From Mesorhizobium mediterraneum (lineage in GTDB: Bacteria > Pseudomonadota > Alphaproteobacteria > Rhizobiales > Rhizobiaceae), in assembly GCF_002284565.1 (NCBI RefSeq), contig NZ_NPKI01000051.1, positions 123,104-187,103 on the forward strand: a stretch of 64,000 bases of DNA. Reading direction: 5' to 3'. The translations under genes and the position numbers were made by a program. How positions within the stretch are numbered: position 1 is the first letter of the stretch; each line of letters opens with the position of its first letter. Under the pieces are notes generated by a model. It was not told the DNA's origin. It did not search any database and was given only the letters and a program-made list of their open reading frames with translations. Shown here one piece after another: positions 24,884 through 46,288 of the stretch.

Positions 24884-25333
24884 TCAGGTGGCTACCTGGA
24901 TTTCCGTCTTCACGGAATTGGCAATGAAGCACTGTTCATGCGCCGAGTGGTGCAGTTTCGCTTCTGTCGCGGCGGTTGGCGTTTCCCCGGCGTAGACAAT
25001 AGTCGGATTGAGGTCAACGCGGCTGACTACCAATCGTCCGTCCACCTTCTCCATCATGCCGACCGCCTTGTCGGTATAGCTCTCCACGACGATCCCCCGG
25101 GGCGCCGCGATCGAGAGAAAGGTCAACATGTGGCAGCTGGAAATCGCCGCGATGTAAGCCTCCTCTGGATCGACGTTGGCTTCCACTGAATAAGGAAGCG
25201 GAACGATATGCGGCGAAGCGGATGCCAGCACCACCTGGCCTCCGTCGAAGCGCCAGATGTGCGCGCGGCTGTAGCGCTTGTCGGTGAATACCGCTCCTTC
25301 TCGCTCCCAGTGCACTTCGACGGTCATTTTCAT
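24884..25333 (-). CDS. OsmC family peroxiredoxin-like protein
   Basis: 149 residues from ATG 25333. The two OsmC/Ohr cysteines are in AAISSCHMLTFL (about residue 60) and SAHEQCFIANSV (about 133). The first lies in the usual AYIAAISSCHML helix. OsmC/Ohr proteins reduce organic hydroperoxides with dihydrolipoamide-type thiols. The ATG overlaps the stop of the upstream GntR regulator (ATGA), so the two are one operon. Confidence 0.9.
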   Translation of the reverse strand: MKMTVEVHWEREGAVFTDKRYSRAHIWRFDGGQVVLASASPHIVPLPYSVEANVDPEEAYIAAISSCHMLTFLSIAAPRGIVVESYTDKAVGMMEKVDGRLVVSRVDLNPTIVYAGETPTAATEAKLHHSAHEQCFIANSVKTEIQVAT

Positions 25334-25959
25334 GATTGATCCTTTGTCGGAACGGAAAGAAGTCTTGCAGTCGTCTGGGTCAGATGGCAGCGAAGATGCT
25401 GCGCCGCAGCGTCGAAATCGCGCCTCGCACAAGCGGCAACGATCGCCGCGTGTTCCTCGAAGAAATCAATTCGCTCCTGGGCGCCACGCTCTTGGTGAAG
25501 GGTTGCCCGCCGGGATTCTCGTCGAAGGTCTCCGATGGTCTTAAGCAATCGAGAATTCGTGCAACCGCTGTACAGGGCTAGGTGAAACTGTTGGTCGAGC
25601 TCCAGAATCCGTGACGGATCGTACTCCGCGAACAGCTCTTCATTGAGCCTCTCAGCCTTACGCAAAGCGGAAGGCTGAAGCCCCGGCACCGACTGCTCCA
25701 AGGCAGCGACCTCCAAAATAGACCGAACTTCGCAAAGTTCAGTCGCCTCCCGTACTGAGAGGATCGCTACCGCCAGGCTTCGATCGGGACGCCGCACGGC
25801 CAAGCCACTCCCGAGTAACCGGTCCAAGGCCTGCCGGACGGGCTGGCGGCTGACCCCGAAACGCTCCGCGATCGATTCCTGCTTGAGAACGGAGCCCGGT
25901 GCCAATTCACCTGACTCAATCTCGTCCTTGAGTTCGCTAAAGATCGACTTTGGATCCAT
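25330..25959 (-). CDS. GntR-family (FCD) transcription regulator of the osmC operon
   Basis: 209 residues from ATG 25959. Winged helix: LAPGSVLKQESIAERFGVSR and QPVRQALDRLLGSGLAVRR near residues 17-55. A FCD effector domain follows (LCEVRSILEVAALEQ, ELDQQFHLALYSGCTN, HAAIVAACARRDFDAAAQHL), with His residues likely to hold a metal and an organic acid. A TTG 12 codons upstream is also open, but the ATG lies inside a perfect palindrome that should be its own operator. OsmC follows with overlap. Autoregulation is inferred. Confidence 0.88.
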   Translation of the reverse strand: MDPKSIFSELKDEIESGELAPGSVLKQESIAERFGVSRQPVRQALDRLLGSGLAVRRPDRSLAVAILSVREATELCEVRSILEVAALEQSVPGLQPSALRKAERLNEELFAEYDPSRILELDQQFHLALYSGCTNSRLLKTIGDLRRESRRATLHQERGAQERIDFFEEHAAIVAACARRDFDAAAQHLRCHLTQTTARLLSVPTKDQS

Positions 25960-25970
25960 GGATCCAAAGT
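25947..25970. promoter_or_regulatory. 24-base perfect palindrome over the gntR start codon (putative operator)
   Basis: The half site ACTTTGGATCCA (25947-25958) is followed directly by its exact reverse complement (25959-25970), with the axis between 25958 and 25959. It contains two TTGGATCCA-type halves. The ATG of the GntR gene begins at the axis on the minus strand, so the first four codons are part of the operator. Bound repressor would block transcription or translation start directly. Confidence 0.7.
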
Positions 25971-26114
25971 ACGATGCCCCGGCGAAGTTGGTCAAGCCCT
26001 AGTCACAATAGTCCTCCTGGGATTGCGGCGTCCCGCCCTTCTGCCTCGGCTCAAGAAACGGAAATGACCAAGGGCCGTTGCGCCGATGCACTAATGCACA
26101 TTGCCGGACGCGCT

Positions 26115-26596: not shown

Positions 26597-27355
<759 letters not shown>

Positions 27356-27383: not shown

Positions 27384-28562
27384 TCATGTGTCGGCGTCGA
27401 TAACGGCCAGCGCCGCGTCGACGCCTTTGCCGACCGCGAGTTTCTGGCCCAAGGAATTCATCGCGCCGCCAAGTGCCGTCAGCGCCGCGACCGCATAGAT
27501 CGGCTGGGCGGTCGGGCCCATATGGCCGATGCGTGTCAGCTTGCCCAATGTTTCGCCACGGCCAGACGAAAACACCACGCCGTAGCGGGCGCGCGCGGCC
27601 TGGCGAACCGCCGTCTCGTCGATGCCTTCTGGCGTCCGGATGGCGGTCGTGGTCGGCGACGCGATATTGTCGCTTGCGGCCCAGATCGACAGGCCCATGG
27701 CAGCGACACCCGCCCGCATGGCCTTGGCGGTGAGCGCGTGACGCGCCCACACCGCCTCCGCTCCCTCGTTGAGGTAGAGGTCGAGCGCGACGTCGAGCCC
27801 GTTCATCTCCGCGACGGACGGCGTGAACGGAAACGGCTTGTCCTTCGACCACGCATGCTCCCAGTCGACGATGCTGAGCATCGACGCGCTCGGCGCCAGC
27901 GGGTTTGCCTTCATCTTGGCCCACGCCCGCTCGCTGACACCCATCATCGTGAGGCCGGGAGGCGCGCCCAAGCATTTGTTCGGGCCAGTGACATAGATAT
28001 CGGCCTTGCATTCCTCTGGATGCGTCCTCATGCCGCCGAAGGACGAAACGGCATCGACGATCAGATAGGCGCCGTGCGCCGAAACCAGCGCGCCGATCGC
28101 GTCGATCGGATTGATAGTGCCGGACGGCGTGTCGTGGTGGCAGACGGAAACGACGGTGATTTCCGGATGCGCTTCCAGCATTGCCGCAACCGCCTGCGGG
28201 TCGATCGCCTCGTTGTAGGGCACCTCGATTTCGATGAGATGCGGCGAATAGCGCTTCGCCCAATAGCCAAACCCCTTGCCGTAGACACCGGAAGCAAGGT
28301 TGAGCACGACGTCGTCCGGCGTGATCAGGGAGGCTGCGGCCGCCTCCAGGCCAAGCACCGGCTCGCCATGAAGAATGACCGGCTTATTCGACAGCCGCAT
28401 CGCCTTCTGCGCCTTGTCGACCACACGCTCGTAAAAGAGCTGGAACGCCGGGTCGTAATCGTAGAGCACCGTGCGGCCGAGGCCGCGCAGCACGTCGGGA
28501 TAGGCGTTCACCGGCCCCGCTGTGAGCGTGATGACAGGTTCGGCGTGTTCGAAATAGCGCAT
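27384..28562 (-). CDS. ppaT: Pyridoxamine-pyruvate aminotransferase
   Basis: 392 residues (M. loti mlr6806: 393, by recall). It converts pyridoxamine and pyruvate to pyridoxal and alanine, without bound PLP; the substrate itself forms the aldimine with Lys196 (VTGPNKCLGAPPGL), the equivalent of Lys197 there. Other matches are LTAGPVNAYPDVLRGLG at the N-terminus and SSGRGETLGKLTRIGHMGP near the C-terminus with the two carboxylate-binding arginines. Fold type I, related to serine-glyoxylate aminotransferases, which is the fallback reading; the pathway neighbours make PPAT the better one. Confidence 0.94.
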   Translation of the reverse strand: MRYFEHAEPVITLTAGPVNAYPDVLRGLGRTVLYDYDPAFQLFYERVVDKAQKAMRLSNKPVILHGEPVLGLEAAAASLITPDDVVLNLASGVYGKGFGYWAKRYSPHLIEIEVPYNEAIDPQAVAAMLEAHPEITVVSVCHHDTPSGTINPIDAIGALVSAHGAYLIVDAVSSFGGMRTHPEECKADIYVTGPNKCLGAPPGLTMMGVSERAWAKMKANPLAPSASMLSIVDWEHAWSKDKPFPFTPSVAEMNGLDVALDLYLNEGAEAVWARHALTAKAMRAGVAAMGLSIWAASDNIASPTTTAIRTPEGIDETAVRQAARARYGVVFSSGRGETLGKLTRIGHMGPTAQPIYAVAALTALGGAMNSLGQKLAVGKGVDAALAVIDADT

Positions 28563-28586: not shown

Positions 28587-30378
<1,792 letters not shown>

Positions 30379-30382
30379 GGCT

Positions 30383-31480
30383 TCAGGCCTTTCGCGACTG
30401 GTTATAGCGGTGATCAATGTATTCGGCGAGCGCGAGCACGATCAGCACGATGGAGACGAGCACCAGCGTGAAATGGTTGGGCACGCCGAGCCGGCGGGCC
30501 GCGCTCTCGCCGCCGATCGACAGCACCGAAAGCAGGAACACGAAACCGATCGCGGCAAAGCCGTTCATGCGGGCGAGGAACACGACGGGGATGACAGCCA
30601 GCCCGTAAGCGGGGTTCCAGTCCGCGCGCACATTGCCCTGGACGCCGAGGATATCGACAGCGCCGGCAAGACCGGCCAGCCCGGCCGAAATGGCGAAGAC
30701 GGCAATGGTGAGCTTCGGCACGCCGAGCCCCGCATGGATGGCCGCGCGTGGGTTAGCCCCGACGATCCTCAACTTCAGGCCGAAGGCCGTGCGCGTCATC
30801 ACCAGATGCACGGTGATGATCGCCACCAGTCCCAGAAGCAATCCGCTTGTGATGGTCGTGTCGAACAGGCGCGGCAGCCGGTCCTCGACCGGCAAGGTGC
30901 GGGTCTGCGGCACGGTTGTGCCCGGATCGCGAAACATCAGCTTGACCAGCACGTTGGCAAGCGAGGTGCCCAGAAACGTCATCATCAGCGTGGTGATGAT
31001 CTCGTTGACGCCCTGATAGGCGCGCAGCAGCGCCGGCACCAGGGACCAGATCATCGCGACCAACATGGCGATGACGAACGAGCAGATCAGCGCCAGCCAG
31101 GCCGGCATGACCTCCACGAGAACCGGAGCGCTGGCCGCCGCCGTTACCGCGCCGAGCAGGAACTGGCCATCACCGCCGAGATTCCACATGCCGGCGCGAA
31201 AAGCCACGATCAGGCCGGCGGCAAGAAACAGCAGCGGCGCCATGCGCGTCAGCGTCTGTTGGATGCCGAGCGGCGATAAAAGCCCTCTCTTGAGGACAAA
31301 GCCATAATAGGCAAGCGGGTCGACGCCGACGGCAAGCAGGATGCAGCCGGCGATGATCAACGCGGCCAGGATCGGGCCGAGGGTCATCAGCAGCCGATGC
31401 TGGATGTCGCGGCGCGTCGCCACCGCGGCCGTGGCATCGAGGGCGGTTGCGCCGGCGGCTGGTGCGGTGTCGATGCTCAT
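30383..31480 (-). CDS. ABC importer permease, BMP/RbsC-type (first permease)
   Basis: 365 residues from ATG 31480. Its ATG overlaps the stop of the ATPase gene (ATGA), so it is coupled to it. After about 35 hydrophilic residues come nine or so membrane spans. GLIVAFRAGMWNLGGDGQFLLGAV and YQGVNEIITTLMMTFLGTSLAN are typical for YufP/BmpC-like permeases. It pairs with the permease at 29443-30378 to form the membrane channel of the importer. Confidence 0.87.
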   Translation of the reverse strand: MSIDTAPAAGATALDATAAVATRRDIQHRLLMTLGPILAALIIAGCILLAVGVDPLAYYGFVLKRGLLSPLGIQQTLTRMAPLLFLAAGLIVAFRAGMWNLGGDGQFLLGAVTAAASAPVLVEVMPAWLALICSFVIAMLVAMIWSLVPALLRAYQGVNEIITTLMMTFLGTSLANVLVKLMFRDPGTTVPQTRTLPVEDRLPRLFDTTITSGLLLGLVAIITVHLVMTRTAFGLKLRIVGANPRAAIHAGLGVPKLTIAVFAISAGLAGLAGAVDILGVQGNVRADWNPAYGLAVIPVVFLARMNGFAAIGFVFLLSVLSIGGESAARRLGVPNHFTLVLVSIVLIVLALAEYIDHRYNQSRKA

Positions 31481-33045
31481 GCGGCAAGCCCGATCATCAA
31501 GCGACCGACCTTGGTGCGGGCGTCGTCGGCATTCTCGACGGTGCCGACGAGCGACCCGTTCGAGATGACGGCGATGCGGTCGCACATGCTGAGCAACTCT
31601 TCGAGATCGGTGGAGATGAGGAGCACGGCAAGGCCGCGAGCCGCCGTATCGCGGATTCGCTGGCGCGAAGCCAATGTGTTGGAGAGATCGAGCCCATAGG
31701 TTGGCTTGTTGAAGATCACCACTTTTGCGCCCTCGGCGAGTTCGCGCGCCAGCAGCACCTTCTGGATATTGCCGCCGGAGAGCCGGGCGACCGGCGTCTT
31801 CAGGCTTGGCGTGCGCACGTCATATTCGCGGACCAGTTGGGCCGCGCGCTTGTCGATTTCGGCGCGCTGCTCGACGCCTTTGCGCCAGAAGGGCGCCGCG
31901 CCAACCTGCTTCAGGAAGAAATTGATCGAGACCGGGAAGGTCCCGACCGTGCCCTCGCCGAGGCGGTCGTCGGTCAGGTAACGCAGGCCTTTCTGGCGGC
32001 GTTCGCCGACGCTCAGCGCCTCGATCGGCGTTCCCTGCAGCCGCACCGAACCGCCCACCGTCGCACGCTGGCCGGCCAACGCCTCCGCCAGGTGCTTCTG
32101 GCCATTGCCGTCGATACCGGCGATGCCCAGCAGCTCGCCTGGACAGATGTCGAAGGAAATCGACGACAGGCCCGGTGCATCGTCTGTCGGCGCAACCGCA
32201 AGATCACGCACTTCAAGCAAGGGAGCCGCTTCGGCACGGATGGTGCGAACGGGACGCTCTGCCGCTTCCGGGTCGTCCTTCTGCTTGCCGAACATCAATT
32301 CGACGATCTCCGAAATGATCGCCTGCTCGCCCAGCGCGCGAAACCGCTCGGGAGGAATTTCGCCGACCTTGCGGCCGAGTTTCAGCACCGAGATGCGGTC
32401 GCCGAAGGCCGCCGCCTCCTTGAGCTTGTGGGTGATGAAGACGATCGCCAACCCCTGCTCGACCAGACGGCGCATCAAGGCGCCCAGCTCGTCGATGCCT
32501 TTCGGCGTCAGCATCGAGGTCGACTCGTCGAGGATCAGAAGCCGGCTATTGCGCACCATCGCGCGCAGGATCTCGACCTGCTGCTGTTCGCCGAGCGAAA
32601 GCTCGGACACCTTGGCATGCAGCTTTACCGTGATACCGAGCGTTCTGGTGATCTCGGCGACGCGCGCTTCCAATTCTTCGGTCTTGGGGCGCTGCCACCA
32701 CGGTCCGCCGAGCAACAGGTTTTCCGCCACCGTCAGCGTCGGCACCAGCATCATGTGCTGGAATACTGTTCCGATGCCGAGCGCCAGTGCATGGCGGGGC
32801 GAAGTGATCGCGGTCGGCTCGCCGTCGACCAATATGCGCCCCTCGTCCGGCTGCTGCAGGCCCGACAGCATGCCGATCAAAGTGGATTTTCCGGCGCCGT
32901 TTTCGCCGAGCAGCACATGCACTTCACCTGGACGGATCTCCAGATCGACGCTGTCGTTGGCGACGACGCCGGGGAACCGTTTGGTGACGCCTTCAAGCGC
33001 GACGATATCGCGCTTAGCGACCGACAATGAGGAAGCACTGCTCAT
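31477..33045 (-). CDS. ABC importer ATPase with two nucleotide-binding domains (BMP/sugar type)
   Basis: 522 residues from ATG 33045 (a TTG three codons upstream is less likely). NBD1: Walker A GENGAGKST (about 49-57), signature LSLGEQQQVEILRAM and Walker B LLILDEST. NBD2: Walker A replaced by GIDGNGQKH, and signature LSGGNIQKVLLARE, as usual in the sugar/nucleoside class with one degenerate site. It energises the importer encoded with the two permeases and the BMP-type protein. Part of the B6 operon. Confidence 0.88.
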   Translation of the reverse strand: MSSASSLSVAKRDIVALEGVTKRFPGVVANDSVDLEIRPGEVHVLLGENGAGKSTLIGMLSGLQQPDEGRILVDGEPTAITSPRHALALGIGTVFQHMMLVPTLTVAENLLLGGPWWQRPKTEELEARVAEITRTLGITVKLHAKVSELSLGEQQQVEILRAMVRNSRLLILDESTSMLTPKGIDELGALMRRLVEQGLAIVFITHKLKEAAAFGDRISVLKLGRKVGEIPPERFRALGEQAIISEIVELMFGKQKDDPEAAERPVRTIRAEAAPLLEVRDLAVAPTDDAPGLSSISFDICPGELLGIAGIDGNGQKHLAEALAGQRATVGGSVRLQGTPIEALSVGERRQKGLRYLTDDRLGEGTVGTFPVSINFFLKQVGAAPFWRKGVEQRAEIDKRAAQLVREYDVRTPSLKTPVARLSGGNIQKVLLARELAEGAKVVIFNKPTYGLDLSNTLASRQRIRDTAARGLAVLLISTDLEELLSMCDRIAVISNGSLVGTVENADDARTKVGRLMIGLAA

Positions 33046-33125: not shown

Positions 33126-34154
33126 TTACTGGGCGACGCTGGTCATCAGCGCCCTGACGGCGGCTGCATCATAGACCGGATCGACCTTGGTCTTGCCGGA
33201 AATGACGTCTTCGCGCAGCGCCTGGATCTCAGCCCAAATATTGTCCGGGATCGCAGCGGTCTTCAGAAGCTTGACGGAATCGTCCTTGAGGCCGATCGAG
33301 TAGCTCTTCGTGCCGAACGTGTCGGCCTTCAGGTCTGCGATCATCGCCGCATAGACCGGCTCGATGTTCCAGACCACCGACGACAGCAGGAAACCTTTGT
33401 CGATGGGCGTCTTGTCGCCGATGACATCGATGAAATAGACCTTGCCGCCATCCCCGGCCTTGGTCGTCTCGACCGCCTGCAGCATGCCGAAGCTCGAGCC
33501 GTTGCCCTGGCCGAAGATGATGTCGGCGCCCGATGCGATCACGCTTTCGGTGACGCGCTTGCCGCCGGCCGCATCGCTGTAGGCGGCGGGCCCGATCACA
33601 GCATAGGTAACCTTGACGTCCGGGCTCTCGGCCTTCACCCCCTGCGCGAACGCCGCCGACTGCGAATTCCAGGACGGAGGCTCGCCGGACACGACGATGC
33701 CGACCGATTTGGAGCGCGACATCTTGGCGGCGAGACGGCCGGCAAGATACGCGCCTTCGTGACCGCTCAGCGTGTAGTCGGCGACGAGACCCTTCTCCAG
33801 ACCGGTCGGTGTGTCGACGATCGCCACCGGCACCTTGGTTTCCTTGGCGATTTCGGGAGCCGAGGTGTTGTAGCCGCTGGCATGAGCGATAAGCAGGCTG
33901 GCGCCGTCAGCCGCCAGTTCGCGCAGTGTCGGCCGTACGTCGCCATAGCCGAGCCCCTGGGCCACGACTATCTCGACGCCGGCAGCTTTCGCCGCCGCCT
34001 TGGCGGCGTCGATACCTTGCTGGTTCCAGCCATAATCGGTGCCTTCTTCCGGCGTCAGGATGGCAATGGACTTGACCTCGGCGGCAAGTGCGTTGCCGAG
34101 CAAGAATCCGCTCAATATAACAGCGCTTACGCTGCTCTTCAAAAACTTAGACAT
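33126..34154 (-). CDS. BMP-family (PnrA-like) periplasmic binding protein
   Basis: 342 residues from ATG 34154, with GAGAGGG upstream. Signal peptide SKFLKSSVSAVILSGFLLGNALA, cleavage before AEVKS. The mature protein has the BMP fold: IAILTPEEGTDYGWNQQGIDAA, then LIAHASGYNTSAPEIAKET, HEGAYLAGRLAAKMSRSK and IFGQGNGSSFGMLQAVE. BMP proteins bind nucleosides and other ring compounds. First gene of an operon that ends with the three upper-pathway B6 enzymes, so a B6 vitamer is a reasonable ligand. GGTTGACC just upstream weakly resembles the operator seen at 42001-42012. Confidence 0.88.
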   Translation of the reverse strand: MSKFLKSSVSAVILSGFLLGNALAAEVKSIAILTPEEGTDYGWNQQGIDAAKAAAKAAGVEIVVAQGLGYGDVRPTLRELAADGASLLIAHASGYNTSAPEIAKETKVPVAIVDTPTGLEKGLVADYTLSGHEGAYLAGRLAAKMSRSKSVGIVVSGEPPSWNSQSAAFAQGVKAESPDVKVTYAVIGPAAYSDAAGGKRVTESVIASGADIIFGQGNGSSFGMLQAVETTKAGDGGKVYFIDVIGDKTPIDKGFLLSSVVWNIEPVYAAMIADLKADTFGTKSYSIGLKDDSVKLLKTAAIPDNIWAEIQALREDVISGKTKVDPVYDAAAVRALMTSVAQ

Positions 34155-34251: not shown

Positions 34252-34677
34252 GTGGTTGTGCGATATGTCCTTCCGATAACGCTGGCGTTCACCTCGTTCG
34301 CCAACGCGGTTGAATTGCGGCACATCACTGTGCGGACCGGCACCGACGGGCTCGATCCCGTGCCGCTGACGATCTCGAATGCGGGGCGCGAGGCGCTTTC
34401 CTGCAGCGCCGACTTCGCCCACTGGTATTCGGCCACGATCGCCACCGCGGCGCCTGGCAAGAGCGCACGTGTCGAGCTGTGGTTCGATCCAAAGACCGGG
34501 ACGTTTGCGATTCTCAACGACAAGCGCGAAAACCTGCCCATCGAGCGGCTGTGGTGCGGCCTGGCGGGCCAGGCATACGCCACGCGCGTGCAGATCGCGC
34601 TCGACCGGGCCAGCGCCGCAAGGGGGCAAGTGGCCGTGACGTGCGTCAGCGCGGACGGCAGGTTGGCCTGCCGGTAG
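34252..34677 (+). CDS. Small exported protein between the two B6 operons
   Basis: 141 residues from GTG 34252, chosen because AGGAG (34237-34241) is 10 bases upstream and the protein then begins with a signal-like VVVRYVLPITLAFTSFANA. The only in-frame ATG (34192) would add an unlikely N-terminus. The mature part is about 120 residues with four cysteines (ALSCSAD, LWCGLA, VTCVSA, LACR), enough for two disulfides. I do not recognise a family. Its strand is opposite to the ABC genes on both sides, so it splits the catabolic genes into two transcripts. Confidence 0.6.
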   Translation: MVVRYVLPITLAFTSFANAVELRHITVRTGTDGLDPVPLTISNAGREALSCSADFAHWYSATIATAAPGKSARVELWFDPKTGTFAILNDKRENLPIERLWCGLAGQAYATRVQIALDRASAARGQVAVTCVSADGRLACR

Positions 34678-34716: not shown

Positions 34717-35727
34717 TCACTCTACCGCCAGGAACTTGTCGGTGAAGACGTCGTCTGCCGACAGCGCCGTTTTGAGCACGCCCTGATCCGTCAGCGTCTT
34801 CAAGGTCTCTTCCCACTGGGCCTTCGTCATCCAGCCGAGACCGTGTTCCTTCGTCGCCGGGCTGTTGAACGTCGAGGCGATGTCGGCCTTGAGCTGGGCC
34901 AGCAGCACGTCCTTCTTTTCGGCATAGCCCGGAACGGCCTTGGCCGTGATCTCGGCGGCTTCATCCGGATGAGCTGCGACATAGTCGAAAGCTTCCCTGT
35001 AGGCCTTCACGAAACGGCGCACGACATCAGGCTTGTCCTTGATCATCGCTTCAGAGGTGAACAACCCCGAGCCGTAGGCTTTCCAGCCGTGATCCGCGCC
35101 GAGCATAATGCTCAGCGACCCCGGGCCGCCGGCCTTGGCTTCGAGTTCGGGCACTTCGGCGTCGAGATAGCCGACCACAGTCTGCACACGTCCGAGCAGC
35201 AGATAGCTCTCGTAAGGCGGCGAGACGCTGTTGAGCGTCATGTCCTTCTCGCTCATGCCGTTGGCAGCCAGGAAGCCTCTGAAGAAGATGTAGGTGGATC
35301 CTGCCGGGTGGATGCCGATGGTCAGGCCCTTGAGGTCGGTTGGCTTGGTCAGCTTGAGCGTCTTGGCGAGCGAGATAATGCCCAGCGGCGACTGCTGGTT
35401 GACCGCCGCCAGCGCCACGACGGGAACATTCTGCGACCTTGCCACGGCAAGCGTGGGAAGATCGCCGAAGCCGAATTCAGCGTTGCCGTTACCCACCAGG
35501 CGCATGGCGTCTGGCGAGCCGGAGCCCTTGCGGACCTCGCTCACATCGATGTCGTTCTTGGCGAAAAAGCCCTTGTCCTTGCCGACAAAGAACATGGCGT
35601 GATTGCCGCGCACGACCCAGTCGAGCTGAACGTTGACCTTATCCGCCGCCAGCGCCGCGTTCGAGAAGCCAAGCGCGCCGACAAACGCCGCAAAGGTGGC
35701 TGCCTTGATAAGAGAGCGTCTCAGCAT
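34717..35727 (-). CDS. NMT1/THI5-like periplasmic binding protein
   Basis: 336 residues from ATG 35727 (AAGGGAAC upstream). Signal peptide LRRSLIKAATFAAFVGALGFSNAALA. The mature start KVNVQLDWVVRGNHAMFFVG and FGFGDLPTLAVARSQ, TDLKGLTIGIHPAGSTY identify the NMT1/THI5-like family, which includes binding proteins for thiamine pyrimidines, riboflavin, taurine and nitrate-like ligands. It is served by the permease and ATPase encoded just upstream. Thi5 enzymes use PLP, so a pyridine or pyrimidine ligand is chemically sensible. A B6 vitamer is my inference. Confidence 0.87.
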   Translation of the reverse strand: MLRRSLIKAATFAAFVGALGFSNAALAADKVNVQLDWVVRGNHAMFFVGKDKGFFAKNDIDVSEVRKGSGSPDAMRLVGNGNAEFGFGDLPTLAVARSQNVPVVALAAVNQQSPLGIISLAKTLKLTKPTDLKGLTIGIHPAGSTYIFFRGFLAANGMSEKDMTLNSVSPPYESYLLLGRVQTVVGYLDAEVPELEAKAGGPGSLSIMLGADHGWKAYGSGLFTSEAMIKDKPDVVRRFVKAYREAFDYVAAHPDEAAEITAKAVPGYAEKKDVLLAQLKADIASTFNSPATKEHGLGWMTKAQWEETLKTLTDQGVLKTALSADDVFTDKFLAVE

Positions 35728-35764: not shown

Positions 35765-36580
35765 CTAGGCCTGGCTGAATTTCGGCGCCCACGGCACCAC
35801 GATGCGTTCGAGAATTTCGGCTGCGTAGTAGAAGGCGATGCCGAGCACGGAAACGAGCAGCAGCGCCGCAAAGACCAAGGGCGTGTCGAGTTGGGTCGAC
35901 GCGAACTGGATGACGTAGCCGAGCCCGTCCGAGGCTCCGGCAAATTCGCCGACGATCGCGCCGATCACACTCAGGGTTGCCGCGATCTTGGTCCCGGCCA
36001 TCAGGCTCGGAAGCGAGTGGGGAACGCGGATCCTGAACAGGATCTGGGTCGGGCTGGCACCGACCGAATTCACCAGCGACAGAAGCGACCGGTCGACCGA
36101 TTGCATGCCCGCCAGCATCGACAGCGTCACCGGGAAGAAGGCGATGACCAGGATCAGACCTATCTTGGGTGCAAGCCCGTAGCCGAACCAGAGGATGAAG
36201 ATCGGCGCCAGCGCAACTTTCGGCACGTTCTGGAACAACACGACGAGCGGGTATAGAGCGCGGCCCAGCCAGTCGAAACGCACGATGACGAGAGCAAGCG
36301 CAATGCCGACTATGACCGAGACAAGAAAGCCAAACAGGATTTCGCCCGCCGTGACCACCGTCGCCTGCATGAGAGTGCCCCATTGCGCGACCAGCGATTT
36401 CGCAATCTCGGATGGGGCAGGAACGATAAAGGAGGAAATGGAGAATATCCGCACCGCGGCTTCCCACAACACGATCGTCACCAGCAAAAGGATGACCGCC
36501 GGAAGCCAGCTGCTTGTCGCCGCGTTCCAGCCGGAAACCGGCTGTGGCTGGGAGAGGTTCATGAGAGGTTGCTCGCTCAC
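35765..36580 (-). CDS. ABC permease, SsuC/TauC/ThiX type
   Basis: 271 residues, six spans. The inner-membrane-component motif is ILFRIRVPHSLPSLMAGTKIAATLSVIGAI near residues 180-209. It starts on the stop of the ATPase gene (ATGA), and the binding-protein gene follows 37 bases later, giving a complete NMT1/THI5-class importer of three genes. Confidence 0.9.
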   Translation of the reverse strand: MSEQPLMNLSQPQPVSGWNAATSSWLPAVILLLVTIVLWEAAVRIFSISSFIVPAPSEIAKSLVAQWGTLMQATVVTAGEILFGFLVSVIVGIALALVIVRFDWLGRALYPLVVLFQNVPKVALAPIFILWFGYGLAPKIGLILVIAFFPVTLSMLAGMQSVDRSLLSLVNSVGASPTQILFRIRVPHSLPSLMAGTKIAATLSVIGAIVGEFAGASDGLGYVIQFASTQLDTPLVFAALLLVSVLGIAFYYAAEILERIVVPWAPKFSQA

Positions 36581-37455
36581 GTCGCGTCTCCTGGCTCATG
36601 ACTGGATCGCAGCATGGTCCGAAGCTGAAGCACCAGCCTGACGAATTCGGGGACTTCGGTCACGGAAGTGTCGCGCGGATAAGGCAGCGGAATGTCCAGG
36701 CTCTGGGTAATGCGCCCTGGGTTGATTCCCAGCACATGAACCTGGCGCGATAACTGAATGGCTTCGTCGATCGAATGCGTCACCAGGACGATCGTCTTGC
36801 CGGTCCGCTGCCATATCTCCAGCAGCGACTGGCCCATCGAATCGCGCGTGATCGCGTCAAGCGCGCCAAACGGCTCGTCCATCAGCAAGACCGCCGGATC
36901 GAGCGCCAAAGCCCGGGCGATGGCCACCCGCTGACGCATGCCGCCAGACAGTTCGTTTGGGCGCTTGTGGGCGGCATCGCCAAGCCCGACCAGTTCCAGC
37001 ATCTCCTGCCCACGCGCTCGCAGCGCCGCGCGCGACATCGACTTGTCGGCGATACCGAGCAGCATCGAGGCATTGTCGACGGCGTTTTTCCACGGCAGCA
37101 GATTGGCGTCCTGGAAGACGAGACCGATCATCCGTTTGCGCGCCGCCTCGCCTGGTGAAACGCCGGCGACCGAGACGCTGCCGCTGCTCGGACTGACCAG
37201 CCCAGCCAGCACTTTGAGCAATGTGCTCTTGCCGCAACCCGAAGGGCCGATGAGGGATACGAACGAACCTTTCGGAACCGAAAGGTCAATATCCCTAAGG
37301 ATCAGCTGCCGGTTCTGATCGGTGCCCATGACCACCGAAACGCCCTTGGCGGAAATCAAGTCGTCGTGGCGGATGTGGGTCGATCTGCCACCGGCGGGTC
37401 GAATGGTTTCAACCTGCATGGCTTGTCGTCCCACGCACGTTCGTTGCTTGAACAT
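36577..37455 (-). CDS. ABC ATPase, SsuB/TauB/ThiZ type
   Basis: 292 residues from ATG 37455, or 280 from ATG 37419; the ribosome sites do not decide. Walker A GPSGCGKST (about 81-89), Q-loop FQDANLLPW, signature ELSGGMRQRVAIARAL, Walker B LLMDEPFGALD, switch His in VLVTHSIDEA. It follows the FHMPC dehydrogenase gene after about 90 bases and is the first gene of the transporter part of the bicupin operon. Confidence 0.9.
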   Translation of the reverse strand: MFKQRTCVGRQAMQVETIRPAGGRSTHIRHDDLISAKGVSVVMGTDQNRQLILRDIDLSVPKGSFVSLIGPSGCGKSTLLKVLAGLVSPSSGSVSVAGVSPGEAARKRMIGLVFQDANLLPWKNAVDNASMLLGIADKSMSRAALRARGQEMLELVGLGDAAHKRPNELSGGMRQRVAIARALALDPAVLLMDEPFGALDAITRDSMGQSLLEIWQRTGKTIVLVTHSIDEAIQLSRQVHVLGINPGRITQSLDIPLPYPRDTSVTEVPEFVRLVLQLRTMLRSSHEPGDAT

Positions 37456-37546: not shown

Positions 37547-38479
37547 CTACTCCCGGCCTTCGAGGATGCGGCGCACGGCGACCAGCTTGCGCGCCCGTTC
37601 GCCTTGCAGCGCCTTAATCTGCTCGGGCGTGTAGGAGAACATGCCCTCGCCCGACTTGATGCCGAACTTCGATGCGCCGGTCTTCTCCAGAACCATCGGC
37701 GCGACATCATCACGATTGGAAAGATCGGCGTTGAGGAACGACGAGACGGATTTGTAGATATCGAGGCCGGCCATATCGAGCAGCGCCATTGGCCCGATAA
37801 CGGCGATCTTGTAGCCGATGCCCCAGGAGACGCAGGTATCGAGATCCTCCGGCTCGATGACGCCGCGCTCAACCAGATCGACCGCTTCGCGCAGCAGCGC
37901 ATAGAGCACGCGATTTTCGACGAAGCCGGGAACGTCCTTCTTCACCACCACCGGCAACAGGCCGATCGAGCGGATCAGCTCGCGTATGGTCGCCACGGTT
38001 TCAGGCGCGGTCTTCTCGCCGCCGATCACCTCGATCATTGGAATGATGTGCGGCGGGTTCGACCAGTGCATGCCGACCATTCGTTGGGGATGGGAGATAT
38101 GGGCCTGCAACTTGGTGATCGGAATGCCTGAGGTATCCGAGGCGACGATCACCGAAGAACCGATCAGCGGGTCGATGGCGCGATAGGTCTCGGCCTTGAT
38201 GTCGATATTCTCAGGCACGTTCTCGATGACCAGCTCCGCACCATCGACAGCCTCGGCGAGGGTGCGGACGAACCGCGCCGTGCCCGCGCCCGCAGTCGGC
38301 CCCTTGATGTCGAGCCGGTCCAGAACCCCGCCGGCCAAATCGAGCATGCCGCGGGCGCGTTCGACCGCAACTTCGGAAACATCATACGCCGCCACGTCGA
38401 GCCCGCCGCGCGAAAGCCGCGCGGCGATGCCCGGACCCATCGTTCCCAGTCCGATGAGGGCGGCGCGCTTGATCATCAT
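37547..38479 (-). CDS. FHMPC 5-dehydrogenase (3-hydroxyacyl-CoA dehydrogenase fold)
   Basis: 310 residues. It oxidises 5-formyl-3-hydroxy-2-methylpyridine-4-carboxylate to HMPDC with NAD+. Recognised from its close match, by recall, with M. loti mlr6793: GLGTMGPGIAARL at the N-terminus, VIENVPENIDIKAETYR, VGMHWSNPPHIIPMIEV, and VPGFVENRVLYALLREAVDLVERGV. The fold is that of 3-hydroxyacyl-CoA dehydrogenases, with no CoA pathway nearby. ATG overlaps the stop of the GST gene (ATGA; an ATG one codon in is also possible). Its location in the bicupin operon is the main link between the known pathway and the new genes. Confidence 0.92.
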   Translation of the reverse strand: MMIKRAALIGLGTMGPGIAARLSRGGLDVAAYDVSEVAVERARGMLDLAGGVLDRLDIKGPTAGAGTARFVRTLAEAVDGAELVIENVPENIDIKAETYRAIDPLIGSSVIVASDTSGIPITKLQAHISHPQRMVGMHWSNPPHIIPMIEVIGGEKTAPETVATIRELIRSIGLLPVVVKKDVPGFVENRVLYALLREAVDLVERGVIEPEDLDTCVSWGIGYKIAVIGPMALLDMAGLDIYKSVSSFLNADLSNRDDVAPMVLEKTGASKFGIKSGEGMFSYTPEQIKALQGERARKLVAVRRILEGRE

Positions 38480-40748: not shown

Positions 40749-41900
40749 CTAGACGATGCGGAGTAGATCGCCGGCCTGGTTGCGGCCCCAGCGTTTGTAG
40801 AGGAGCAGCGCCTTCTGGGTCGGCGCATCGGTCGCGCCGAAGAAGATGACCGGCTCGGACGAGGAGCCATTGACGTGCTCGACCCAGGAACCACCCGGTA
40901 TGGCGATCGTCTCGAACTGGTTCCAGTCGTAGCGTTTGCCGTCGATGATTGAATGGCCATTGCCGCGGAACGGCGCCAACAGCAGGCTGGCGGTCTCGCG
41001 CTGCGGCAGCGTCTTTTCGCCCGGCCGCAACATCTGGACGTAGAAGTTGATCGTGTGGAAGACCGGGCCGCCGGTGGTGGGGTCGACATAGTCGATGACG
41101 ATACCTTCGTGCGGATCGCCGTCCCAATCCTTGTGGGCATCGAGGATCGCTTCCATCTTCTCCCAGCGATAGACATACATCGGCGACGACAGGCCGCCGC
41201 CGCGTTTGTGGTCGACGAAGCGCGGCATCAGGCCGCCCTCCCCATAGATGCGTTGCGAATAATCGCTCGGGAAACGGGCGGTCTGCACCTTCTTCTCGAC
41301 TTCCTTGCCGTCGACCATCTCGGTGTATTTGTGGTCGAAATGCACGGCGTGCAGTGTCTCGACCAGCGGCAGGTCGAGAACCGAAAGGTTGACTGCCTGC
41401 TCGCCGCCGACAGTGCCGTGATTGTGCCAGGCATCATTGGGTGTCAGCACCATGTCGCCGGGGCCGAAAACCACATCCTCGCCTTCGACGCCGGTAAAGT
41501 TGCCCTTTCCGGTCAGGCCAAAACGTATGGCGCTCGGCGAGTGCTTGTGCGGCGGCATGATCTCGTCTGGATCATTCAGGCGATAGGCGGTGTACATCGT
41601 GCTGACCGATGCGCGCTTGGGCGCAAGACCGGGATTGACCAGGATCAGCGAGCGGCGCTCGCTATCGTCCATGGTGACCAGTTCGGCGGCGCGCTGCAGC
41701 AGCGGCTCGATGTCGGCATAGGACCAGACGAAGGGTATCGCCTTCGACGTCGCCATGAGCTGCTTAATCTCGTCGTGATCGACGCCTTCCGATGTCGCCC
41801 AGAACGGAAACATGTTCTTTTCGTAGAGGGCGTCATACAGGCCCTTCAGCGCGGCCTTCTTGTTGGTGACGGCAAGGTCTGCTGGTTGCGCCATGGACAT
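40749..41900 (-). CDS. Gentisate 1,2-dioxygenase-like bicupin, candidate ring-cleaving enzyme
   Basis: 383 residues from ATG 41900 (AGAGG upstream). Cupin 1 has the complete Fe(II) triad: His118, His120 (IMPPHKHSPSAIRF) and His159 (AWHNHG), with Arg126 and Arg82/83 (ERRSLILVNPG) in the places that hold the substrate carboxylate in gentisate and salicylate dioxygenases. Cupin 2 (GHSIIDGKRYDWNQFETIAI) lacks the metal ligands, as expected. Near residue 103 the sequence STMYTAY looks gentisate-type rather than salicylate-type. First gene of the operon bicupin-LVIVD-RidA-GST-FHMPC dehydrogenase-ABC. It probably opens an aromatic ring bearing OH next to COOH; HMPDC is the obvious candidate. Confidence 0.88.
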   Translation of the reverse strand: MSMAQPADLAVTNKKAALKGLYDALYEKNMFPFWATSEGVDHDEIKQLMATSKAIPFVWSYADIEPLLQRAAELVTMDDSERRSLILVNPGLAPKRASVSTMYTAYRLNDPDEIMPPHKHSPSAIRFGLTGKGNFTGVEGEDVVFGPGDMVLTPNDAWHNHGTVGGEQAVNLSVLDLPLVETLHAVHFDHKYTEMVDGKEVEKKVQTARFPSDYSQRIYGEGGLMPRFVDHKRGGGLSSPMYVYRWEKMEAILDAHKDWDGDPHEGIVIDYVDPTTGGPVFHTINFYVQMLRPGEKTLPQRETASLLLAPFRGNGHSIIDGKRYDWNQFETIAIPGGSWVEHVNGSSSEPVIFFGATDAPTQKALLLYKRWGRNQAGDLLRIV

Positions 41901-42188: not shown

Positions 42189-43817
42189 TCAGGCCGCCAT
42201 GGCTTGTTCAGCACGGCTGCGGATCAGGTCCGAGGCCTTTTCGGCGATCATGATGACCGCCGCATTGATGTTCCCGCAGATGAGGTCCGGCATCACGGAA
42301 GCATCCACTGCGCGAAGACCGGCAACGCCGCGCACCCGCAGTTCGGGATCGACCACCGACCCGGCGTCGACACCCATGCGACAGGTGCCGCCGGGATGGT
42401 GCACGGTGATCGAGGTCTTGCGAATATGCTCGTCGATCTCGTCGTCGCTCTGGCATTGCGGCCCCGGAAAGAATTCCGAGGCGATAAACGGCGTCATCGA
42501 CGGTTGCGCAGCGAGGTTGCGCGCCACGCGGAAGCCGGCGCGGAGCGACTGCCAGTCACGCGGTGAGGACAGGAAATTCTGGTGGATCAGCGGCGCGGCC
42601 AACGGGTCGCTCGACGCCAGCTTCACGCTCCCCCTGCTCTCCGGCTGGACGGCGACGATGCGCGTCGCAAAACCATCGGCGAAGGGCGCCTTGAATGGTG
42701 CCATGTAGGGCCATGCGGCAAGCGGTGCAGCCGTGAAAAGCAACTGCACGTCTGGCAACGGCCGGCTTGCATCGCTTTTCAGGAACGCCACGACCCCGCC
42801 TGGCACATCGCCAGAAAAGCCCTTGCCGGTGAGATAGGTCTTGACGAAATCCAGCCCGATACGATCGGCTCGCATCATTTTGAGGAATGGTCCCGGCTGC
42901 TTGCGCCGATACATCAAGATGACCGAAACGTGGTCCTGCAGGTTCTTGCCGACCTGCGGACGGTCGACTTTCGTCTCGATACCATGCGCGGCGAGCTCGC
43001 CACTATCGCCAATCCCCGACAGCATCAGCAGCTGAGGCGTATTGATGACGCCGCCGGCAAGCAGAACCTCACGCCGCGCCAAAACCTGATGGGTAGCACC
43101 GCCTCTGGCGTAGGCGATGCCGGTCGCGCGCCCATCCTTCAGCAGGATCCTCGTCGCCATCGCGCCGGTCAGCACCTTGAGATTGCTGCGGCGCATGGCG
43201 GGACGCAGATAGGCCGACGCGGTCGAACAGCGGCGACCGTTTGCGATCGTCATCTGCAGTCGGCCAAAACCCTCCTGCACGGCGCCATTATAGTCGTCGG
43301 TCTGAGGATATCCCGCATCCCGGCTGGCTGTGGCGAAGGCATCTATCAGCTCGTCCTTGTAGCGGCAGAACTGGGTATTCAGCGGTCCGCTGCCACCGCG
43401 ATAGTCGCTCTCGCCCTTTTCCCAGCGCTCCTGCTTCTTGAAATAGGGCAGCACCTTGTCGAACGACCAATCGGTGAGGCCGCTGGCCGCCCAGCGATCA
43501 TAGTCGCCACGATTGCCGCGCACATAGGCCATGGCATTGGTGGAGGAGGAGCCGCCGATGACCTTGCCGCGGGCGCATTCGACCTTGCGTCCGCCGACAT
43601 TGGCCTCGGGCTCGCAGAAATACATCCAGTCGTGACGGCGCTCGGTCAGAATCTTGCCCCAGCCAAGCGGGATATGGATCATCGGATCGCGATCCCAGTC
43701 CCCGGCTTCCAAGAGCAGCACGGAAACATCCGGATCTTCGCTCAAGCGGTTTGCAAGCACGCAGCCGGCCGACCCGGCTCCGACAATGACATAGTCAAAT
43801 GTTTCCCCAAACGGCAT
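42189..43817 (-). CDS. GMC flavoprotein, putative 4-pyridoxic acid dehydrogenase
   Basis: 542 residues from ATG 43817 (GAGG upstream). FAD site [20 protein letters not shown] (8-27), GMC signature [20 protein letters not shown] (about 81-100), second signature [15 protein letters not shown], and the active-site His in [13 protein letters not shown] and NINAAVI. M. loti uses a membrane-bound GMC flavoenzyme (mlr6792) for 4-pyridoxic acid to FHMPC; position beside the B6 regulator and pyridoxine oxidase makes this the best match. An alcohol or choline dehydrogenase is the alternative reading from sequence alone. Confidence 0.82.
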
Positions 43818-44029: not shown

Positions 44030-44707
44030 TTGAACGCATTCGAGCCGCAGATCGTATCATCGGATCTCGACGACATCATTGCAGCGGTCCGCCGGTTGCA
44101 ACAGGGTGGCGGCAAGTTGCCTTCCGAGCGTGACCTTGCCGAACATCTGAATGTGAAGCGTCACCAGCTTCGCAAGGCGCTCGAATTGCTGCGTCAATCA
44201 GGCGATTTGAAACCGGCGCGCGCCCGGCGTGCGCCAACCGCCCTGCCCCGATATGGCGAGGAGCTTGTCAGGGTAACCAATCCAATCGAGGTTTTGGAAT
44301 TGCGCCTGCTGATGGAGCCGGGCCTCGCCCGGCTGGCATCGCTGCGCGCTTCGTCATTCGAGACGGCCCGGATCATCGATGCGGCAACCACGCCGGAGAA
44401 TGCCTCGTCGGGCGCAGTCGATTTCGCGTTTCATCTCGCCATCGTTGCAGCCGCTCGCAACCATCTTGCCACTGAATTCTACAAGATGCTGCGCCAGGTC
44501 GGGGTCGATGCGCGGGTGAAGATCGCACGCACCGCGGCACCCACCTGCCCCAAGCGGATCGCCGAGCGCGACGGCGAACATCGTCTGATTGCCGAAGCGA
44601 TCTCGAAACGCGACCCGGAAGCGGCCGAGGCGGCGATGCGCGCGCATTTGCTGTCCGTGCAAAGACAGATCACCGAACGATCGAATGCCGGCGCCTTTGC
44701 CGCATAA
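44030..44707 (+). CDS. GntR-family (FCD) regulator of vitamin B6 catabolism
   Basis: 225 residues. TTG 44030 is used because AGGAG (44017-44021) is 8 bases upstream; the in-frame TTG 44024 is too close. Winged helix: KLPSERDLAEHLNVKRHQLRKALELLRQSG near residues 28-57. FCD ligand domain: EVLELRLLMEPGLARLAS, VDFAFHLAIVAAARNHLA, ERDGEHRLIAEAISKRDPEAA with His residues for a metal-held carboxylate effector. The pyridoxine oxidase gene follows after 45 bases; the GMC gene diverges. A pyridine carboxylate such as 4-pyridoxate is a sensible inducer, by inference. Confidence 0.88.
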   Translation: MNAFEPQIVSSDLDDIIAAVRRLQQGGGKLPSERDLAEHLNVKRHQLRKALELLRQSGDLKPARARRAPTALPRYGEELVRVTNPIEVLELRLLMEPGLARLASLRASSFETARIIDAATTPENASSGAVDFAFHLAIVAAARNHLATEFYKMLRQVGVDARVKIARTAAPTCPKRIAERDGEHRLIAEAISKRDPEAAEAAMRAHLLSVQRQITERSNAGAFAA

Positions 44708-44752: not shown

Positions 44753-46288
44753 GTGAAACGTCATTTCGACGTGCTGGTCGTCGGCGCGGGATCGGCCGGC
44801 TCGGTGGTGGCCAGCCGGCTGAGCGAGGACCGATCATGCCAGGTCGGCCTGATCGAGGCCGGGGTGATGCCGTCCGATCCCGATATCGCCGACCCGCTGA
44901 AATGGACGATGCTGCAAGGCCGCGCTTACGACTGGGCCTATCGGACAGTGCCGCAACCCTTTACCGCAAACCGCGTGCACGAATGGCCACGCGGAAAGAT
45001 CGTCGGCGGTTCGAGCTGCCTGCATGCCATGGCCTATGTGCGTGGTCATCCCGATGATTTCGAACCCTGGGCGGCTGCCGGCGGCGAGCGCTGGTCCTTT
45101 TCGGGCTTGTTGCCGGGCTTTGTCCGCAGTGAAGCTTTCACCGCCTTCGATGCGCCGTCGCGCGGCCGCAGCGGACCGCTGGATGTCTATTTGCCGGATG
45201 CAGAGGTCAGCCCCGTCGTCCGCGCCTATATGGCCGCCGGACGGGCCATGGGAATCTCCGCCCTGACCGATCACAACAGCGGCGAACTGGCCGGCACCAG
45301 CCCCAATTCGCTGAACATCCGCGCCGGCCGGCGCCTGAGCGTCGCCGATGCCTATCTGCCGCCGGAGGTCAGGGCACGACCGAACCTTGCCTTGCTCACC
45401 GCCCACGAGGTCGAGCACCTCCTGCTGGAGGGCCAGCGGGCCACGGGTGTGGCTGTCGTGCGTGACGGAGAGACCACGACGGTCTCCGCCGACAGGATCG
45501 TTCTTTGCGCCGGTGCGGTGTCCTCACCGCTCATCCTCATGCGATCGGGCATCGGCGATGCGGACACGCTGAAGCAAGCGGGGATACGCTGCCTCGCCGA
45601 CCGAAGCGATGTCGGCCGCAATTTGCAGGACCATCTGCTGGTCCTTGGAAATGTCTACAGCACCAAAAAACCGCTGCCGCCGTCGCGCCTGCAGCACTCG
45701 GAATCGCTGATGTACCTGCACGGCAGCGACATTACCCGTTCGACGGGAAGCCCCGATATTGTGCTAGCCTGCGTCGTTGCCCCATCAGCCGCAGACGGCC
45801 TGAGTGCCCCGCCCTATGGCTCGGCTTTCACGATCCTATGCGGCGTCACCCATCCGACCAGCCGTGGGCGCATCGCACCGAGCGGGCCGGGCCGGGCCGA
45901 TGCACCCATCATCGACCCGCATTATCTCGAAACCGAACACGACCGGGCGGTTTTCAGGACGGCGCTGAAGACGGCGCGCACGATTGGTCATCATCCAGCG
46001 CTCGACGAATGGCGCGACGTGGAAGTCCTGCCGGGATCAGCGGTGCGGTCGGACGCCGACCTTGACGCTTTCGTCGCGAGCGCTGCCTCCACACATCATC
46101 ATCCTGCCGGCACGTGCAGGATGGGCGGGGATGCCGACGCAGTCGTCGACCCGGATTTGCGGCTGAACGGCTTCGACAATGTCTTCATCGTCGACGCGTC
46201 AGTGATGCCGACGATCCCGAGCGGGCCGATCAACGCCGCCGTCGTCGCAATCGCGGAAACCTGGGCGACAGCCTCGGCTAGCGCGTGA
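44753..46288 (+). CDS. pno: Pyridoxine 4-oxidase (GMC family)
   Basis: 511 residues from GTG 44753 (GGGGA upstream). It oxidises pyridoxine to pyridoxal with oxygen, making H2O2. The N-terminal 115 residues nearly match the M. loti enzyme (mll6785) by recall: KRHFDVLVVGAGSAGSVVAS, WPRGKIVGGSSCLHAMAYVR, GHPDDF. C-terminal ATTHHHP-type His motif is seen as STHHHPAGTCRMGGDADAVV, and INAAVVAIAETWA closes the fold. Identity falls in the middle third, so the enzyme may differ in specificity. Operon: gntR-pno. Confidence 0.9.
   Translation: MKRHFDVLVVGAGSAGSVVASRLSEDRSCQVGLIEAGVMPSDPDIADPLKWTMLQGRAYDWAYRTVPQPFTANRVHEWPRGKIVGGSSCLHAMAYVRGHPDDFEPWAAAGGERWSFSGLLPGFVRSEAFTAFDAPSRGRSGPLDVYLPDAEVSPVVRAYMAAGRAMGISALTDHNSGELAGTSPNSLNIRAGRRLSVADAYLPPEVRARPNLALLTAHEVEHLLLEGQRATGVAVVRDGETTTVSADRIVLCAGAVSSPLILMRSGIGDADTLKQAGIRCLADRSDVGRNLQDHLLVLGNVYSTKKPLPPSRLQHSESLMYLHGSDITRSTGSPDIVLACVVAPSAADGLSAPPYGSAFTILCGVTHPTSRGRIAPSGPGRADAPIIDPHYLETEHDRAVFRTALKTARTIGHHPALDEWRDVEVLPGSAVRSDADLDAFVASAASTHHHPAGTCRMGGDADAVVDPDLRLNGFDNVFIVDASVMPTIPSGPINAAVVAIAETWATASASA

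Follow-up and report, generated by a model that had tools for sequence, protein, structure and literature searches.

Vitamin B6 is probably degraded, by the gene cluster described here, along the known upper route to 5-hydroxy-6-methylpyridine-3,4-dicarboxylate (HMPDC), after which a bicupin, a RidA-family protein and an LVIVD-repeat protein would finish the breakdown. The genes, the residues, the exchange of a gene slot and the complementary distribution reported below are observations; the substrate of the bicupin, the bond that it cuts and the later steps are inferred without activity data.

The vitamin B6 cluster

The cluster lies in a 64,000-nucleotide stretch of Mesorhizobium mediterraneum DNA (the window), from a genome of 7.19 Mb (G000); its genes are listed in Table 1. 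Four B6 enzymes, FHMPC dehydrogenase, 4-pyridoxolactonase, pyridoxamine-pyruvate transaminase and pyridoxal 4-dehydrogenase, exceeded their NCBIfam equivalog cut-offs. The upper part of B6 pathway I, defined by pyridoxine 4-oxidase, pyridoxal 4-dehydrogenase, 4-pyridoxolactonase and FHMPC dehydrogenase, was complete, and judged from these assignments this is a genuine vitamin B6 degradation cluster. Downstream of the bicupin gene, the LVIVD, RidA, GST and FHMPC dehydrogenase genes follow on the same strand, with gaps of 76, 9 and 25 bp and finally an overlap of 4 bp, and this run is operon-like. GMC1 lies upstream of the bicupin gene, with 288 bp between them. We propose it as the 4-pyridoxate dehydrogenase from its position and from the M. 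loti gene order; no solved 4-pyridoxate dehydrogenase was among its structure matches.

Table 1. Genes of the vitamin B6 cluster, with positions in the window
Feature	Position	Strand	Remarks
Pyridoxal 4-dehydrogenase (SDR)	26597..27343	-	NF047923 423 bits, cut-off 325
Pyridoxamine-pyruvate transaminase	27384..28562	-	NF046070 660 bits, cut-off 600
4-Pyridoxolactonase	28587..29393	-	NF047925 488 bits, cut-off 325
ABC transporter permease, BMP-type system	29443..30378	-	
ABC transporter permease, BMP-type system	30383..31480	-	
ABC transporter ATPase, BMP-type system	31477..33027	-	
BMP/PnrA-like solute-binding protein	33126..34103	-	Start chosen by script; in the ORF list the frame starts further upstream
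NMT1/THI5-like solute-binding protein	34717..35727	-	
ABC transporter permease, NMT1-type system	35765..36562	-	
ABC transporter ATPase, NMT1-type system	36577..37419	-	
FHMPC dehydrogenase (makes HMPDC)	37547..38479	-	NF042925 558.6 bits, cut-off 500; 4om8 554 bits
Glutathione S-transferase-like protein (GST), 206 aa	38476..39096	-	GST_N/GST_C; by inference a candidate cis-trans isomerase
RidA-family imine/enamine hydrolase, 135 aa	39122..39529	-	PF01042
LVIVD-repeat beta-propeller, 377 aa	39539..40672	-	PF08309; by inference a candidate metallo-hydrolase acting on the ring-opened product
Bicupin, ring-cleaving dioxygenase candidate, 383 aa	40749..41900	-	C3-C4 cleavage of HMPDC proposed
GMC oxidoreductase GMC1, proposed 4-pyridoxate dehydrogenase	42189..43817	-	GMC domains
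GntR/FCD regulator	44030..44707	+	Divergent from the catabolic operon
Pyridoxine 4-oxidase-like GMC2	44753..46288	+	4ha6 584.7 bits

The lower part of pathway I, which requires HMPDC decarboxylase and MHPC oxygenase (MHPCO) in the genome, was not met by G000. A search of the whole genome for the decarboxylase gave only two matches (26% and 24% identity, E ~1e-5), and for MHPC oxygenase the best match was partial, with 37% identity over about 160 residues. A copy of either enzyme hidden elsewhere in G000 was ruled out by this search, which bore out the original prediction that the decarboxylase is absent. No acetamidomethylene-succinate (AAMS) hydrolase was found in the cluster, to which the search for this enzyme was confined.

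A small gene at 34258-34677(+) lies between the two ABC transporters, divergent to the operon. Neither Pfam nor, at E 1e-20, NCBIfam matched it, and classic as well as bicupin loci hold relatives of it (32-88% identity). The far end of the cluster, at 24884-25995(-), has an OsmC-like gene that overlaps a GntR/FCD regulator.

Two exchangeable cassettes

FHMPC dehydrogenase (NF042925) was searched in 397 genomes of the order as the starting set; 11 genomes exceeded the cut-off, and a twelfth (G226) reached 467 bits. The neighbourhoods within 20 kb of this gene held two exchangeable cassettes. The classic cassette, in the order MHPCO, AA_synth gene, YbhB-like gene, HMPDC decarboxylase, GMC1 and FHMPC dehydrogenase, was found in 34 of 56 genus loci; in 32 of these, AAMS hydrolase was recognised immediately ahead of MHPCO. 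Its MHPCO matched the solved MHPC oxygenase 3alj at 844 bits, its decarboxylase the Mlr6791 structure 2z7b at 460 bits, and its AAMS hydrolase 3kxp at 509 bits. The other 22 loci had the order GMC1, bicupin, LVIVD, RidA, GST and FHMPC dehydrogenase. GMC1, FHMPC dehydrogenase, the BMP transporter, the lactonase and the transaminase flank both cassettes, and GMC1 was present in 56 of 56 genus loci. The bicupin is the one recognisable O2-activating enzyme of its cassette, in which no known decarboxylase, hydroxylase or amidohydrolase was recognised. LVIVD, RidA and GST, which had no place in the original prediction, travel with the bicupin.

The AA_synth (PF06684) and YbhB/YbcL-like genes were present in 36 of 36 classic loci (e.g. 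L032:5857-6936), and to our knowledge neither has a part in B6 breakdown; an AA_synth gene also occurs in two bicupin loci (L113 and L114, 42-43% identity). The second transporter of the cluster varies across L032-L042 and L043-L122, being an NMT1-type ABC system, a TRAP system or a third type. This third type, named by eye, stands beside the NMT1-type ABC or TRAP system, alone or together. In L037, Pfam identifies the binding protein of the TRAP system as DctP.

Distribution of the two cassettes

Whole-genome searches of the 12 order genomes found the bicupin in seven and MHPCO in five, without overlap, and HMPDC decarboxylase co-occurred with MHPCO. Among 146 genus genomes, 56 had FHMPC dehydrogenase over the cut-off. 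The bicupin was found in 22 and MHPCO in 34, no genome had both, and together they made up exactly these 56, while none of the 90 genomes without FHMPC dehydrogenase had either one at the thresholds used (E 1e-120, and E 1e-80 for the decarboxylase; weaker homologues were not counted). The bicupin as an incidental neighbour was ruled out by this census (22/22 with FHMPC dehydrogenase, 0/90 without). HMPDC decarboxylase occurred in 35 of the 146 genomes, namely the 34 with MHPCO and G511, a 79% complete genome with no match to FHMPC dehydrogenase, the bicupin or MHPCO.

At the class level (385 genomes), five genomes besides G000 matched FHMPC dehydrogenase at E ≤1e-100, three of them over the cut-off. 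The bicupin was present in all five (58-64% identity), and an MHPCO orthologue in none; the decarboxylase census leaves these five out. The genomes beyond the genus census numbered 12 (10 bicupin, 2 MHPCO), and the total was 68 genomes with FHMPC dehydrogenase, of which 32 had the bicupin, 36 had MHPCO, none had both and none had neither. These 68 were selected for the presence of FHMPC dehydrogenase. In one bicupin genome (G120), the bicupin and FHMPC dehydrogenase are on separate contigs, the latter contig starting at GST. Another genome of the bicupin type (G819) encodes, on a different contig, two proteins resembling MHPCO (41-42% identity); two MHPCO genomes hold paralogues of 42-43% besides MHPCO itself, so such proteins were not counted as MHPCO.

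The FHMPC dehydrogenase tree, a quick tree with long-branch warnings, had three type changes, at least two of them forced by starred branches. Within the genus there was one type change for FHMPC dehydrogenase, one for GMC1, two for the BMP transporter genes and four for the lactonase (4PAL), which would fit block exchange by recombination. The complementarity thus appears to rest on no more than about three independent swaps, and the 68 genomes are far from being separate events. Comparison of the genomes nevertheless gives strong though indirect evidence, from the same slot and the 68/68 complementarity, that the bicupin cassette replaces the classic finish.

Occurrence and make-up of the bicupin loci

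A collection of 84,980 species was scanned with two peptide patterns, so that relatives without these patterns were missed; 101 relatives were confirmed and the best 80 were taken, which overlap in part with the 146 genus genomes. The best 80 of the 101 came from Mesorhizobium, Pseudaminobacter, Bauldia, Rhodobacteraceae, Roseomonas, Inquilinus, Rhodoplanes and Betaproteobacteria such as Pandoraea and Polaromonas, those of 95-99% identity being mostly Mesorhizobium. In these best 80 loci, LVIVD adjoined the bicupin in 74 and stood one gene further away in six. RidA was in 70 of the 80 flanks, GST in 68 and GMC1 in 65; RidA and GST, missing from 10 and 12 flanks, may thus help and not be essential, and some contigs were short. 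MHPCO, the decarboxylase and AAMS hydrolase were found at ≥50% identity in none of the 80 flanks. FHMPC dehydrogenase (≥40% identity) was in 58 of them, at only 43-46% identity in three (L115, L116 and L122). Four of the 22 loci without it had an aldehyde dehydrogenase beside GMC1 (Pfam was checked on L087 only, to which the other three are 65-66% identical), and the CH2OH-to-COOH logic may there be met by another family. The remaining 18 of the best 80 loci had neither enzyme in the flank, the only region covered; some of their contigs were short.

In L107-L111, which are alphaproteobacterial MAGs (three labelled Rhodospirillales), a bicupin, FHMPC dehydrogenase and LVIVD run lies near a hydantoinase/oxoprolinase A and B pair, identified by Pfam on L107 only and by the same gene sizes in the other four; their flanks contained no RidA and no GST. 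Pseudaminobacter salicylatoxidans DSM 6986 (L061) also carries the B6-type bicupin cassette, and the salicylate 1,2-dioxygenase structures come from this species. Mesorhizobium ciceri WSM1271 and M. loti DSM 2626 are also among the carriers of the cassette.

The bicupin and its active site

The bicupin frame starts with ATG at 41900, from which residues were numbered, and the ORF list begins it at TTG 41945. Pfam assigned Cupin_2, marking the first cupin domain only. The closest solved relatives by sequence were 3bu7, 2d40 and salicylate dioxygenase entries, and the AlphaFold model (monomer, no metal, mean pLDDT 84.5) had 3bu7 and 2phd as its top Foldseek matches. Pfam, sequence and fold place the protein among the gentisate/salicylate 1,2-dioxygenase bicupins, the family that the original prediction had named. 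The sequence and fold features of the 3-His bicupin superfamily are present, namely two cupin domains, three His ligands and the equivalents of Arg83, Arg127 and His162. Catalysis is inferred, as no activity data for a cassette bicupin were found in the open literature. Residues 35-50 of the model have pLDDT below 50; they belong to the N-terminal part, which in salicylate dioxygenase contributes to a neighbouring active site (PMC10306065). The gentisate 1,2-dioxygenase model TIGR02272 scored 205.1 bits against a curated cut-off of 442.1, and its best E value among 54 cassette bicupins was 4e-66; the 5-aminosalicylate 1,2-dioxygenase model NF049978 scored 197.1 bits against 650.

The iron triad and arginines claimed earlier (His118, His120, His159, Arg82, Arg83 and Arg126) were all present in the frame and, together with His161, were invariant in 81 of 81 cassette bicupins (the window protein and the best 80 of the 101 relatives). 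These seven metal/catalytic residues were also kept in 9 of 9 paralogues, that is, full-length weaker matches after three short ones (E ~5e-4) had been excluded. Ala124, Arg126, His161 and Leu175 were likewise kept in the 81 (window and best 80 of 101), whereas Gln108, Trp172 and Asp174 in salicylate dioxygenase numbering were replaced in every one of them by Arg107, Asn171 and Ser173 in bicupin numbering. The Leu38 equivalent was left out of the comparison. Gln, Trp and Asp at these three positions were retained by all nine paralogues from the same genome set; paralogue L127 passes the gentisate dioxygenase cut-off (489 bits), and L129, which retains Gln and Asp, passes that for 5-aminosalicylate dioxygenase (713 bits).

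In salicylate dioxygenase (PMC10306065), Arg83, Gln108, Arg127 and His162 bind the substrate carboxylate, and Asp174 together with Trp104 reads the 5-OH of gentisate. All gentisate dioxygenases reportedly conserve Leu38, Gln108, Ala125, Arg127, His162, Trp172, Asp174 and Leu176 (PMC11264262). With Arg, Asn and Ser at 108, 172 and 174 in 81/81 proteins (window and best 80 of 101), the cassette bicupins do not fit this pattern, which argues against gentisate as the substrate. In salicylate numbering we infer that HMPDC has no 5-OH and carries an extra C6 carboxylate beside the C1 carboxylate contacted by Gln108. The loss of Asp174 and the Arg at 108 would suit a substrate with an extra carboxylate and without a 5-OH, for example HMPDC, an inference from residue identities alone. 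The STMYTAY stretch, which had earlier raised the doubt that the enzyme is of the gentisate type, does not discriminate: the Tyr at this position occurs in most gentisate dioxygenases (PMC10306065 and PMC11264262), and the gentisate-reading Gln108 and Asp174 are Arg107 and Ser173 in the same 81 of 81 (window and best 80 of 101).

The partner proteins

The best Foldseek match of LVIVD was the phosphotriesterase 5hrm (TMq 0.72), to which its sequence was only weakly similar (E 3e-8, 20% identity, covering little). LVIVD was rich in invariant His, Asp and Glu, with His65, 67, 120, 184, 185, 227, 230 and 299 invariant in 81 of 81 proteins (window and best 80 of 101). Because of the fold match and the eight invariant His, our guess is that LVIVD is a metal-dependent hydrolase of the C5 product. 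RidA scored 65.7 bits with TIGR00004 (cut-off 106) and 43.7 bits with RutC, under its cut-off too; its Arg108, which we take to be the catalytic Arg, was invariant in 71 of 71 cassette proteins (window and loci of the best 80 of 101). The classical RidA reaction is the hydrolysis of 2-iminopropanoate to pyruvate, and the substrate of RutC is of the 3-aminoacrylate type. GST reached 45.5 bits with maiA, under its cut-off.

Proposed route and alternatives

HMPDC is inferred to be the substrate because its producer is kept, its known consumers are gone and the bicupin is the sole O2-enzyme candidate in the cassette. The slot swap and the 68/68 complementarity lend strong, if indirect, support to the original prediction that the bicupin may cleave HMPDC and spare the decarboxylase; the activity, the substrate and the C3-C4 position are inferred. 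In the proposed route, the known upper route would run to HMPDC, made by FHMPC dehydrogenase, and the departure from the known route would come there, with the bicupin standing in for the decarboxylase, the flavin oxygenase and the amidohydrolase. The Fe(II) bicupin would chelate the 3-oxide and the 4-carboxylate of HMPDC and put O2 between C3 and C4, following the chelating-pair chemistry of the family. This cut would leave N1=C2(CH3)-COOH, and the opened ring would consist of an N-substituted 2-iminopropanoate linked to an aminomethylidene-oxaloacetate. RidA would turn the imine into pyruvate and aid the release of ammonia; the non-imine half of the open product would be a substituted 3-aminoacrylate, resembling a RutC substrate. 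LVIVD, with GST where present, would handle the C5 half, most simply to oxaloacetate and formate. A mass balance of HMPDC + O2 + 3 H2O to pyruvate + NH3 + formate + oxaloacetate is possible.

The same replacement might also hold with the bicupin acting on an earlier intermediate, FHMPC or 4-pyridoxate (one or two steps back), and with FHMPC dehydrogenase acting on another compound or forming a side branch. Both compounds also have the salicylate-like pair of a 3-OH beside a 4-COOH, and 18 of the best 80 of 101 loci have neither FHMPC dehydrogenase nor aldehyde dehydrogenase in the flank (some on short contigs). However, FHMPC dehydrogenase is over its equivalog cut-off in the window and in 58 of the 80 flanks at ≥40% identity, an aldehyde dehydrogenase is beside GMC1 in four further loci (both of the best 80 of 101), and the invariant Arg107 (81/81, window and best 80 of 101) suggests an added anionic group, all of which makes an earlier step improbable.

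MHPCO opens the ring at C2-C3, and the bicupin could have reused this bond in HMPDC. Such a cut would give an N-acetyl compound and need an amidohydrolase, which is absent from the flanks: AAMS hydrolase was found in none of the flanks of the best 80 of 101 loci, the only regions covered, versus RidA in 70. Gentisate dioxygenase, moreover, cuts C1-C2, between the carbons bearing COOH and OH (PMC4019311), corresponding to C3-C4 in HMPDC. We consider C2-C3 cleavage very improbable and infer the C3-C4 position, because of the family chemistry and because RidA is present and AAMS hydrolase absent in the flanks.

There is only a slight chance that another cassette member (LVIVD or GST, say, working as a decarboxylase or a hydratase) prepares HMPDC and that the bicupin cleaves the resulting product. 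LVIVD is at most two genes from the bicupin in 80 of 80 loci (best 80 of 101) and is rich in invariant His, Asp and Glu, but without the 4-carboxylate the chelating pair used by the family would be gone (PMC10306065 and PMC4019311). An ordinary gentisate/salicylate dioxygenase lying in the cluster by chance, to which the same fold and metal site and the closest solved relatives would point, was rejected as scarcely credible on the sub-cut-off scores (205 bits vs 442 for gentisate, 197 vs 650 for 5-aminosalicylate), on the loss in 81/81 cassette bicupins (window and best 80 of 101) of Gln108 and Asp174, residues kept in the paralogues, and on the genus distribution (E 1e-120; 22 genomes, all with FHMPC dehydrogenase, and 0/90 without). 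Direct cleavage of HMPDC by the bicupin remains the preferred reading.

Comparison with known systems

Two B6 degradation routes have been identified, one to succinic semialdehyde and one to 2-(hydroxymethyl)-4-oxobutanoate (PMC3538738), and neither is the bicupin route. We found no description of a bicupin route in B6 breakdown in the open literature, subscription papers and preprints being outside the scope. The preferred reading is a third B6 route that combines a known pathway and a known enzyme superfamily in a new way, probably with a new substrate class.

It is possible, although we hold it only tentatively, that this is in full a third, undescribed B6 route of Alphaproteobacteria and some Betaproteobacteria, in which the bicupin would open an intact pyridine dicarboxylate at C3-C4, with no decarboxylation or hydroxylation beforehand, RidA would convert an imine that belongs to the pathway and is no by-product to pyruvate, and LVIVD would be a new C-C/C-N metallo-hydrolase. 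HMPDC would then give pyruvate, ammonia, formate and oxaloacetate, not succinic semialdehyde, acetate, ammonia and two CO2. If true, this would account for the end of the pathway in 22 of the 56 FHMPC dehydrogenase-positive genomes of the genus. It would then also assign a function to a bicupin only weakly matched by the gentisate model, point to roles of an LVIVD propeller and a RidA protein in the pathway, and mean that a gentisate-type enzyme was adapted to a pyridine ring by a few identifiable substitutions.

The salicylate 1,2-dioxygenase of P. salicylatoxidans (2phd) and the gentisate 1,2-dioxygenases 3bu7 and 2d40 share with the bicupin the fold, the 3-His iron site and the equivalents of Arg83, Ala125, Arg127, His162 and Leu176, but the identity is 25-30% and the equivalents of Gln108, Trp172 and Asp174 differ. 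The 5-aminosalicylate 1,2-dioxygenases are in the same superfamily, but the bicupin falls far short of the cut-off of their model. The 2,5-dihydroxypyridine dioxygenase NicX also opens a pyridine ring with a mononuclear Fe(II) centre, but is not known to be a cupin. According to PMC7910607, the ligands of its iron are two His, one Ser and one Asp, and it cuts a dihydroxypyridine at C5-C6. The phosphotriesterase of Sphingobium TCM1 (5hrm) shares the beta-propeller fold with LVIVD, at 20% identity. B6 pathway I, known from Pseudomonas MA-1 and Mesorhizobium loti MAFF303099, shares with the window the upper enzymes to HMPDC, the gene neighbourhood and apparently the genus. However, pathway I has HMPDC decarboxylase and MHPC oxygenase, which the window genome lacks, and its AAMS hydrolase is missing from the window cluster; bicupin, LVIVD, RidA and GST stand in the place of these three.
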